Part shown: positions 1 through 36,258 of the stretch, one piece after another
Numbering within the stretch: the first letter of the stretch is position 1
How the letters are laid out: every line of letters begins with the position of its first letter
Assembly (NCBI GenBank): GCA_902524805.1
Contig: CABZES010000009.1
Span: 1-55,847, forward strand
From: an uncultured SAR86 cluster bacterium
GTDB lineage: Bacteria; Pseudomonadota; Gammaproteobacteria; Magnimaribacterales; AG-339-G14
DNA: 55,847 nt
Reading direction: 5' to 3'
Position numbers and translations under genes: made by a program
Notes under the pieces: model-generated
Databases searched by the model: none
Seen by the model: only the letters and a program-made list of their open reading frames with translations
Told to the model about the DNA's origin: nothing

Positions 1-2
1 AA

Positions 3-473
3 GATTTCTCTGAAATTATAATCTTGCAAGAAGCTATAACTGGAATTAGAAATATAAGGTCGGAAATGCTAATTCCTCAAAAGGAGCAAATCAATATTAC
101 AGCTAGCAAATCAAGTTTGCTTTTTAAGCTTTTAAAGAAAAATAAGAATTATCTTTATGAAATGGCAGGAGTAAATGAAATTTTAGAGTTGACTAAAAAA
201 GCTCCTCCTTCAGCGATAGTTTTAATTGGAAAAGAGAAAATTTATTTACCTCTAGAAGGTTTAATTGATGTTCAAGATGAAAAAAATAGAAGTCAAAAAA
301 ATTTAGAAAAACTCATAAGATCTATTCAAAGCCTCGACAATCAATTAAAAAATAAAAAATTTATTAAAAATGCTCCTAAACCCTTGATTAAAGAAAGAAA
401 ACTGCAATTAAAGGAAGCAAATGAAAAAATCAAAAAGCTCAATGATCATCTTAAGATTTTAGAGCGCATTTAA
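3..473 (+). CDS. valS: Valyl-tRNA synthetase, C-terminal end (partial)
   Basis: This is the last ~156 residues of valyl-tRNA synthetase, which charges tRNA-Val in the cytoplasm. The frame is open from base 3 without a start, so the gene begins upstream. The visible part holds the end of the anticodon-binding domain (EAITGIRNIRSEM, a typical ValS segment) followed by a Lys/Glu-rich antiparallel coiled coil (about the last 65 residues, with the hydrophobic heptads LEKLIRSIQSL and LKEANEKIKKL). That coiled coil is the tRNA-contacting arm characteristic of ValS. The stop lies 5 nt from the stop of the opposing acetyltransferase gene. The catalytic core is not in the window. Confidence 0.93.
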   Translation, partial: DFSEIIILQEAITGIRNIRSEMLIPQKEQINITASKSSLLFKLLKKNKNYLYEMAGVNEILELTKKAPPSAIVLIGKEKIYLPLEGLIDVQDEKNRSQKNLEKLIRSIQSLDNQLKNKKFIKNAPKPLIKERKLQLKEANEKIKKLNDHLKILERI

Positions 474-2071: not shown

Positions 2072-2611
2072 TTAACTTTTTATCCTGAAAATATTCTTAA
2101 TCATATATGTCATTTGATTGAAAAAACTGTTTAATTTGCTAATTTCTAAGTGTTTTGTAAATATTAGACCGTCTTCCCTTCCGGAATTAAGCTTGTAATA
2201 GTTTTTTCTAATTCCAACGTACCTATATTTATTTTTCTTGTAAAAAGAAATAGCATTTTTATTTGATTCTCTCACTTCCAAAAAAATATCTGTTATACCC
2301 TTCTTTATTGCTTTTTTTTCTGAGACTTTTAATAAAATTTCTCCTATTCCTTGATTTCTGTAATTTGGATGTACAGAAATATTAAGCAAGTGAGACTCAG
2401 TAAAATTAATCGTCATAATACAAAAAGCTACTTGTTCTTTGTCTAGGGTAACAATTAAATTTTGATAAAACCCTCTTAAACAATCAGAAAAGCTAGTTTT
2501 ACTCCAAGGTGTAGGATTAGATAGCTTTTCAATATCATAAACTCCTTGCAAGTCATGGAAGGACATTTTTTTAATATTAAGAGATTTCGTACCAAATTTT
2601 TCTTTTAGCAT
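2072..2611 (-). CDS. rimI: Ribosomal-protein-alanine N-acetyltransferase RimI
   Basis: RimI acetylates the N-terminal alanine of ribosomal protein S18. The 179-aa protein shows the RimI signatures in order: PTPWSKTSF, the acetyl-CoA loop HPNYRNQGIGE, LEVRESNKNAISFYKK, and IRKNYY followed by REDGLIF. It is ~30 residues longer than the E. coli protein (148 aa), mostly as a basic C-terminal tail after the catalytic fold. The ATG at 2611 is needed to include the first beta strand; the next in-frame ATG (2566) would remove it. The start lies inside the upstream gene (35-nt overlap), so translation is probably coupled. Gene order matches holD-rimI of enteric bacteria. Confidence 0.9.
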   Translation of the reverse strand: MLKEKFGTKSLNIKKMSFHDLQGVYDIEKLSNPTPWSKTSFSDCLRGFYQNLIVTLDKEQVAFCIMTINFTESHLLNISVHPNYRNQGIGEILLKVSEKKAIKKGITDIFLEVRESNKNAISFYKKNKYRYVGIRKNYYKLNSGREDGLIFTKHLEISKLNSFFNQMTYMIKNIFRIKS

Positions 2612-2870
2612 CTGGGTCCTTCATAAGCTTATCTAGATTAGGATCTTTTAAAATATTATTACTAGCCAAAAATTTATATATTTTTAATGAATCTTTTTCA
2701 TCAAAATCTAGTCCAAAGGCCTTAGAAATAGAAAAAAGAAATTCAGATTCTGCTTTAGAAAAATTTATATGTTTATTAATTTTTATTTTATTCTTTTCAA
2801 ATTGAAAATTATCGTTCAATTTCCAAAATTGAATGCCAACTTCCTTTATAAAATTTTCGTCCACGTTCAT
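2577..2870 (-). CDS. holD: Putative divergent DNA polymerase III psi subunit (HolD-like)
   Basis: This 97-aa protein has no strong signature, but three short blocks line up, in order, with E. coli HolD from memory. VGIQFWKLN (residues 11-19) fits LGITQWSLR; FLFSISKAFGLD (44-55) fits the central helix; and PDAKRKIWYEI (86-96) fits PTARAALWQQI at the C-terminus. It sits immediately upstream of and overlaps rimI, as holD does in E. coli. Psi bridges the clamp loader and chi, which contacts the SSB tail. At 97 aa it would be much shorter than the E. coli protein (137 aa). The alternative is an unrelated lineage-specific small protein. It is divergent from leuA across a 44-nt gap. Confidence 0.55.
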   Translation of the reverse strand: MNVDENFIKEVGIQFWKLNDNFQFEKNKIKINKHINFSKAESEFLFSISKAFGLDFDEKDSLKIYKFLASNNILKDPNLDKLMKDPDAKRKIWYEIS

Positions 2871-2914: not shown

Positions 2915-4597
2915 TTGAAAGAAATAGTAAATAGTTCAGTAAATAAATATTCTCCCTTTAAGGTCATAAAATTAGATGATAGAACTTGGCCCGCCAAGCA
3001 GATAAATAAATCTCCAATTTGGTGTAGTGTAGATTTGAGAGATGGAAATCAATCTTTGATTGAGCCTATGGGCATGGAAAAAAAATTAAGATTTTTTTCT
3101 ATGTTGGTCAACTTGGGCTTTAAAGAAATTGAAATTGGATTTCCCTCAGCATCTGATACAGAATTTGGATTTGTAAGAAAACTCATTGAGAAAAATCTTA
3201 TTCCCGATGATGTAAAGATTCAAGTTTTAACGCAAGCAAGAGAACATTTAATAAGGAAAACATTTGAATCAGTTAAAGGGGCTAAAAATGTAATTTTGCA
3301 TTTATATAACTCTACTTCAACTTTGCAAAGGGAAGTTGTATTTAAACAGGATAAAAAAGGAATTTTAAAAATTGCTACTGATGGAGCAAGACTTGTGAAG
3401 TCCATGGCTGAAGCAAATCAGAATACAAATTGGCAATTTGAGTATAGTCCAGAAAGTTTCACAGGTACTGAATTAGAATATGCTGTAGAGGTCTGTAACG
3501 AGGTAAATGAAATATGGAAGCCAAATAAAGAGACTAAAACAATTATGAATTTACCAGCGACAGTTGAACTTGCATCTCCAAATATCTATGCAGACCAAAT
3601 AGAATGGATGTGTAGAAACCTGAATAAACGAGAAAATGTTTTAGTAAGTCTTCATCCACATAATGACAGAGGCACAGGAATTGCTGCGGCAGAATTAGGA
3701 TTGATGGCAGGTGCTGATAGAATAGAAGGAACTCTTTTTGGAAATGGTGAAAGGACTGGGAATGTAGATATTGTTTCTTTAGCTCTAAATCAATTGACAC
3801 AAGGAGTGGATCCTAAGCTTGATTTCTCTGATATCAATAAGGTCATGAGAGAAGTTGAATATTGTAATCAACTTCCGATTCATCCAAGACATCCATATGC
3901 GGGAGATTTAGTTTTTACCGCTTTTTCTGGCTCTCATCAAGACGCAATAAAAAAAGGGTTTGATGCAATGAGAGAAACAAATGATCCAAAATGGAAAGTA
4001 CCCTATCTTCCCATCGATCCTGAGGATGTTGGGAGAAATTATGAAGCAGTTATTAGAATAAACAGTCAATCTGGTAAAGGTGGTGTAGCTTATATTATTG
4101 AAAAAGATCACGGATTGTCTTTGCCAAGAAGACTACAAATTGACTTCTCAGGAATTATTCAAAAAATTGCAGATGAATCCGGAAAAGAACTTGAAGCAAA
4201 TTTAATTTGGGATACTTTTAGAATGACTTACTTAGATGTGCAAGGAAAATATGAATATTTAAGTCATGAAATTATTTCTAAAAATGATGACAGAAATAAT
4301 CAAATAGATGAAATTAATTTAACCTTGAAAATAAAAGGTAAAACTTCTAACTTATCTGGTAAAGGTAATGGACCCATAGACTCTTTTATTAATGCTTTAG
4401 AAAATAGTGAAGGTATAAATTTAAAAGTTTCTGACTATCAACAAAATGCTATTTCATCAGGCTCTGATGCCTCTGCTGCTGCATATATTGAACTAAATGT
4501 TAAAGATAAAACTCTTTGGGGAATAGGGATTAATCAAAATACAATTGTTGCATCCTTTCAAGCAATAATAAATGGACTTAATAGATCAGGCTATTGA
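2915..4597 (+). CDS. leuA: 2-isopropylmalate synthase (long form)
   Basis: LeuA condenses acetyl-CoA with 2-oxoisovalerate, the first committed step of leucine synthesis. The 560-aa length and the opening motif DRTWP...IWCSVDLRDGNQSL place it in the long form found in Pseudomonas and actinobacteria rather than the ~520-aa enteric form. The HMGL TIM barrel covers the first two thirds, with metal-site motif LHPHNDRGTG and GNGERTGNVD. The C-terminal part is the leucine-sensing regulatory domain (SGSDASAAAYIE). The start is TTG; no ATG lies upstream of the conserved N-terminus. There is no clear Shine-Dalgarno, and a TAAAAT hexamer at 2899-2904 lies just before it. The 3' end overlaps tilS by 12 nt in antisense. 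Confidence 0.96.
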   Translation: MKEIVNSSVNKYSPFKVIKLDDRTWPAKQINKSPIWCSVDLRDGNQSLIEPMGMEKKLRFFSMLVNLGFKEIEIGFPSASDTEFGFVRKLIEKNLIPDDVKIQVLTQAREHLIRKTFESVKGAKNVILHLYNSTSTLQREVVFKQDKKGILKIATDGARLVKSMAEANQNTNWQFEYSPESFTGTELEYAVEVCNEVNEIWKPNKETKTIMNLPATVELASPNIYADQIEWMCRNLNKRENVLVSLHPHNDRGTGIAAAELGLMAGADRIEGTLFGNGERTGNVDIVSLALNQLTQGVDPKLDFSDINKVMREVEYCNQLPIHPRHPYAGDLVFTAFSGSHQDAIKKGFDAMRETNDPKWKVPYLPIDPEDVGRNYEAVIRINSQSGKGGVAYIIEKDHGLSLPRRLQIDFSGIIQKIADESGKELEANLIWDTFRMTYLDVQGKYEYLSHEIISKNDDRNNQIDEINLTLKIKGKTSNLSGKGNGPIDSFINALENSEGINLKVSDYQQNAISSGSDASAAAYIELNVKDKTLWGIGINQNTIVASFQAIINGLNRSGY

Positions 4598-35835: not shown

Positions 35836-36258
35836 TTAGAAAGGAATTTCATCATCCATCGGGGTCTGGTCCATGGAAGATTCTTCTGAAGAGTTAGATT
35901 GAATCTCGCTATTATTTCTACTACCTAGCATCTGCATATCTCTGGCAACTATTTGAGTTGAATATTTTTTTTCGCCGGTGTTTTTGTCTTCATAACTATT
36001 AGTTTGAAGTTGTCCTTCAATATACACAGAAGAGCCTTTTTTTAAATATTGACCAACTACTTCTGCCATTCTTCTAAAAAAAACAACCCTATGCCATTCA
36101 GTTTTTTGTTGTTCTTCTCCGGTATTTTTATCTTTCCAACTATCAGAAGTTGCTATAGATATAGTTGCTACAGCATCTCCTCCTGCAGTAGTTCTTAGTT
36201 CTGGATCGGCTCCTAAATTACCAAGTAATATAACTTTATTAATTCCACTTCTTGCCAT
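35836..36258 (-). CDS. ssb: Single-stranded DNA-binding protein
   Basis: SSB coats single-stranded DNA in replication and repair. The 140-aa protein starts [19 protein letters not shown], continues with the OB-fold ([36 protein letters not shown]) and ends with a Ser/Asn/Glu linker and the acidic tip MDDEIPF, which docks repair and replication proteins. The linker is much shorter than in E. coli SSB (178 aa). It diverges from uvrA, as in E. coli. No obvious LexA box is seen in the 69-nt gap. Confidence 0.98.

Follow-up and report, generated by a model that had tools for sequence, protein, structure and literature searches.

A much shortened HolD (psi) ortholog upstream of rimI in SAR86 bacteria, probably a minimal psi of the DNA polymerase III clamp loader

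HolD (psi) is a small protein that ties the clamp loader to chi in the DNA-replication machinery. SAR86 bacteria, which have tiny genomes, are among the most abundant groups of the surface ocean. In E. coli, HolD comprises 137 residues (PDB 1EM8, 3SXU, 8GIY); it binds to domain III of the three DnaX subunits through its N-terminus, and SSB is bound by chi (PMC3290774, PMC3197488). The psi protein of Pseudomonas aeruginosa is cryptic and is missed by simple homology searches (PMC3197488), as is the protein described here.

The window, i.e. the whole stretch of 55,847 nucleotides that was analysed, comes from an SAR86 genome and carries near its start a short gene between leuA and rimI. A sequence-only reading had proposed that the ORF at 2577-2870 (97 aa) encodes a divergent HolD with three psi-like blocks. 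The ORF is present with an ATG start and all three blocks were found; its strand, however, had to be corrected to minus, as the same positions read on the plus strand contain stops throughout. The relevant features are the following.

1-473, plus strand: 3' end of valS, truncated at the contig start (ORF 24-473)
2072-2611, minus strand: rimI, ribosomal protein S18-alanine N-acetyltransferase (TIGR01575, 115 bits, cut-off 86)
2577-2611, minus strand: overlap of the holD 3' end with the rimI 5' end, 35 nt
2577-2870, minus strand: holD (mini-psi), 97 aa, ATG start, AGGA ribosome-binding-like sequence about 8 nt upstream
2586-2639, minus strand: C-terminal block, residues 78-95 (NLDKLMKDPDAKRKIWYE), matching the psi C-terminus L..L...P..KR..W..I
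2718-2756, minus strand: central helix, residues 39-51, FLFSIS motif, equivalent of the psi helix LLxxILxAI by conservation, predicted helix and family motif
2814-2858, minus strand: N-terminal block, residues 5-19 (ENFIKEVGIQFWKLN), matching the DnaX-binding N-terminus of psi (E. coli DWQLQQLGITQWSLR)
2915-4597, plus strand: leuA-type 2-isopropylmalate synthase gene, divergent neighbour upstream of holD
35860-36246, minus strand: ssb (extent of the family match), C-terminal tail DDEIPF

The mini-psi gene directly precedes rimI and overlaps it by 35 nt; the likeness to the E. coli arrangement that had been pointed out earlier thus stands, the holD/rimI overlap of E. coli being 32 nt. Rfam matches were absent from the first 5 kb of the window. 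SAR86 has been divided into four families that form two pairs of sisters (PMC11582366). We denote the family of the window genome as f1 and the other families of the same order as f2-f4; from its four genera and its sister relations, f1 would correspond to RedeBAC7D11 (GTDB AG-339-G14). The order leuA<>holD-rimI is conserved across f1, f2 and f3.

The best Pfam match of mini-psi is PF03603 (psi) with 21.7 bits (E 2.5e-4), i.e. 0.5 bit short of the curated cut-off of 22.2, and places residues 68-96 on positions 97-125 of the 127 profile positions. Scanned singly, 18 of 32 f1 members match this family and any other Pfam family matches at most three; in 13 genomes of genus g4 it is the psi N-terminus (PF03603 positions about 2-28) that is matched at the orthologous ORF. 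Searches of the PDB sequences with the single mini-psi sequence or with the profile of its family gave chance matches only. The score below the gathering cut-off, together with a structural model that is not recognised as psi (see below), could be taken to mean that an unrelated small protein happens to lie before rimI and resembles psi by chance. We consider this very improbable. An independent psi profile, made from E. coli psi and 14 further psi sequences from other families of gammaproteobacteria and including no SAR86 sequence, singled out the ORF (E 1.3e-4) as the only match among 91 ORFs of the window. This profile matched 29 of 32 f1 members, the window ORF included, and 27 members outscored all 960 shuffled sequences, of which the best reached an E of 0.48. 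A second, unambiguous holD at another place in the genome would have spoken against the proposed assignment; it was looked for and not found: the PF03603 search of this 80% complete genome returned no locus besides 2577-2870.

A chance likeness is also hard to reconcile with the end-to-end profile alignment of mini-psi with psi proteins that occupy the same position in sister families and are in part recognised by Pfam. The ORF between leuA and rimI encodes a full-length psi of 129-145 aa in f2 and of 139-147 aa in f3 (sequences read), and its end blocks are common to mini-psi. Many f3 proteins exceed the Pfam cut-off across PF03603 positions 3-126; f2 psi is cryptic to Pfam but can be aligned by hhalign with f3 psi (E 7e-8) and with the independent psi profile (E 3e-9). 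Alignment of the f1 profile with that of f2 and f3 psi gave a probability of 94.7 and an E-value of 6e-8 over residues 5-93, compared with 0.5 for the reversed alignment and 0.03 for the best of 40 column shuffles. From position and profile alignment it follows that mini-psi is a psi ortholog shortened by internal segments. Profile, synteny and family alignment agree, and on these comparisons the 97-aa ORF is evidently a genuine, much shortened HolD ortholog, as the sequence-only reading had supposed.

Three blocks are kept in comparison to E. coli psi, as judged from the alignment and the family motif: IKEVGIQFWKL, the helix around FLFSISKAF, and LDKLMKDPDAKRKIWYEI. The first of these (residues 8-18) corresponds in the alignments to the DnaX-docking block LxxLGIxxWxL, and within it VGIQFWKLN (residues 11-19) aligns with E. 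coli LGITQWSLR. FLFSISKAFGLD (residues 44-55) aligns with the E. coli helix LVSDVLRALTV, and PDAKRKIWYEI (residues 86-96) with E. coli NPTARAALWQQI; in the alignment, LDKLMKDPDAKRKIWYEI carries the C-terminal pattern L..L...P..KR..W..I. The K-R-x-x-W element is eroded in genus g4, which speaks against a minimal psi.

An AlphaFold2 model of mini-psi (32 sequences, pLDDT 70.5) shows the elements H3-11, E22-25, E28-31, H39-51, H61-70, H79-84 and H86-94. The corresponding model of a full-length f3 psi (27 sequences, pLDDT 74.5) shows H4-14, E34-39, E42-46, H55-68, E76-81, H83-92, E98-102, E113-116, H119-124 and H126-138. The order of elements is the same in both, but mini-psi lacks the last three strands, i.e. 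three of the five core strands, while the f3 protein keeps the core sheet in the single model made. The models suggest that mini-psi has retained the DnaX-binding N-terminus, the first hairpin and the helices of psi but is missing three central-sheet strands. Structure comparison of the mini-psi model by Foldseek and VIA-align found no psi chain (Z at most 2.6, unrelated folds), at a pLDDT of 70 and with the recognisable sheet mostly absent. For the f3 model, VIA-align ranks E. coli psi first among PDB structures, with 3sxu_B at Z 7.3 (rmsd 3.0, 90 residues aligned) and 1em8_D at Z 6.9, the next best match reaching 6.0; VIA-align is therefore able to recognise psi in this order.

In the model a large part of the core sheet is gone, which raises the main alternative, namely that mini-psi is only a peptide for the DnaX collar: it would keep the N-terminal docking segment, which stimulates clamp loading, but would have ceased to hold chi, and chi would act alone or on SSB. 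The N-terminal block is indeed the best conserved segment, by a small margin (0.58 vs 0.46-0.56 for the others). Conservation of the central helix and of the C-terminal block under purifying selection nevertheless exceeds what a docking peptide would need, and we regard this alternative as rather unlikely.

The selection argument rests on the family of the window genome. A search of genome contigs with the 97-aa protein found no relatives, and f1 relatives were gathered from whole genomes by kinship; the protein was matched at E<=1 in 32 of 40 f1 genomes, most weakly in genus g3. At the loci read, mini-psi of genera g1 and g2 has 97 aa, apart from one protein of 95 aa; the g4 proteins have 99 aa and those of g3 89 aa, and a further SAR86 record (L183) carries the same 89-aa form as g3. 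The shorter psi of f1 (97-99 and 89 aa, compared with 129-147 aa in f2 and f3), together with the absence of psi from f4 by profile search, could reflect a holD gene that is decaying on its way to loss with little function left, as apparently happened in f4. Length is, however, nearly fixed inside each genus, reading frames are intact in every relative read, and the median dN/dS within genera is 0.15-0.37, well under 1, from which we conclude that the gene is under purifying selection; decay is hence improbable. PF03603 detects psi in 16 of 369 gammaproteobacterial genomes, always in an open frame of at least 133 aa. Of the psi proteins surveyed, mini-psi would be the shortest; this ranking applies to the surveyed set only, because the PF03603 profile would tend to miss short forms.

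The sequence-only reading had asked for holC in the genome and had assumed that chi and SSB contacts must both fit into the small psi. The first of these contacts stands, but SSB is contacted by chi and not by psi, so only the contacts to DnaX and chi have to be accommodated. No holC was found in the assembly of the window genome, where the contig begins inside valS. An initial interpretation that holC is absent from the genome was dropped as an artefact of this assembly gap; another valS fragment is found on contig C22 of this assembly. holC is present in all seven genomes of the same genus that were searched and in nearly all of f1, upstream of valS where read, and sister genomes show the order pepA-holC-valS followed by rimI and holD at a distance of 5-8 kb from holC. 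Since the contig starts inside valS and relatives carry holC just upstream of it, the gene is expected just off the contig.

In alignments, chi of all four f1 genera retains W57 and F64 of the psi pocket as well as the SSB-site residues V117, R128 and Y/F131. F64 is located in the chi-psi interface, and an F64A exchange weakens the interactions with psi and with YoaA (PMC4636137, PMC9826845); the roles of F64 and of the SSB site are described in PMC4636137. None of 12 genomes of the order yielded a DinG/YoaA-type helicase domain (PF13307), which leaves psi as the only known partner for the F64 pocket. Both the retained W57/F64 pair and the missing YoaA-type helicase argue against a collar peptide that works without chi. 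The C-terminal tail of SSB, DDEIPF or a close variant, is present in 12 of 12 genomes; DDEIPF is the canonical chi-binding tail. In f2, chi (L127:1061-1504, plus strand; L128:1052-1501, plus strand) carries, in the same alignment, Ala in place of the SSB-contacting R128 in the presence of a full-length psi. These proteins have Leu or Val instead of F64; because f2 does not keep F64 yet has a full-length psi, this residue cannot serve as a strict indicator of psi binding.

Comparison of the four families gives a patchwork. Family f1 has chi and mini-psi, and f2 has chi, encoded between pepA and valS, and psi. In f3 a full-length psi is present at the leuA-rimI locus and chi is not detectable; in two single-contig genomes (L075 of G044, about 1975-1989, and L135 of G062, 3709-3722) the gap between pepA and valS is within about 15 nt, and as pepA directly adjoins valS there is no room for holC. 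Psi can thus apparently be retained without chi in this order, which is in favour of the collar peptide. In f4, psi is absent at the rimI locus in three genomes and by profile search in eight, and an ORF of 132-133 aa without Pfam match lies exactly between pepA and valS:

L132:3717-4118, minus strand: candidate chi ORF
L133:3702-4100, minus strand: candidate chi ORF
L136:849-1250, minus strand: candidate chi ORF

These ORFs show a weak full-length likeness to chi (hhalign E 0.003, against 0.025 for the best of 40 shuffles) and are candidates for a strongly diverged, cryptic HolC. Trees of pepA and valS group f3 with f4. ValS itself has about 740 aa in these two families (L132, L133, L134, L135), the C-terminal part being missing, as compared to 910-920 aa in f1 and f2 and 951 aa in E. 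coli. Going by gene content and sequence, shrinkage or loss of psi and of chi appears to have taken place independently among SAR86 families. A literature search for SAR86 together with HolC found no report.

We consider it likely that the ORF is holD and encodes a minimal psi of the DNA polymerase III clamp loader that tethers chi-SSB to DnaX; the retained N-terminal block, chi pocket and SSB tail fit such a bridge. The N-terminal approximately 20 residues of mini-psi would dock on the collar of DnaX (tau/gamma) as those of E. coli psi do, and the shortened rest, predicted to consist of two short strands and four helices, would hold chi via the W57/F64 pocket; chi in turn would grip the DDEIPF tail of SSB. 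The tau-psi-chi-SSB bridge would then be kept despite the predicted loss of three central-sheet strands. We infer both binding contacts and the exact fold of mini-psi from these comparisons. The wider proposition, that a psi cut to 89-99 residues still bridges DnaX and chi and that chi and psi have become uncoupled in SAR86 as the patterns of f1, f3 and f4 imply, has in our view about even chances. Mini-psi would represent a natural deletion experiment on which parts of psi are needed. If it has kept its hold on chi, a large part of the psi sheet is not needed for the bridge; if it has not, psi has a chi-independent job, to which the occurrence of psi alone in f3 also points. In either case the psi proteins of SAR86 are missed or barely reached by family profiles.

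In comparison to E. coli HolD, mini-psi has the LGIxxWxL-type N-terminal block at the same position and the helix and the KRxxW-like C-terminal block in the same order, and both genes overlap rimI by about 30 nt. It differs in being 30% shorter, in the predicted absence of three strands of the central sheet and of the stretch that links the psi helix to the C-terminal block, and in its other neighbour, which is leuA in SAR86 and rsmC in E. coli. The psi of P. aeruginosa has diverged in the opposite direction, to nearly twice the size of the E. coli protein with extra N-terminal and loop segments (PMC3197488).
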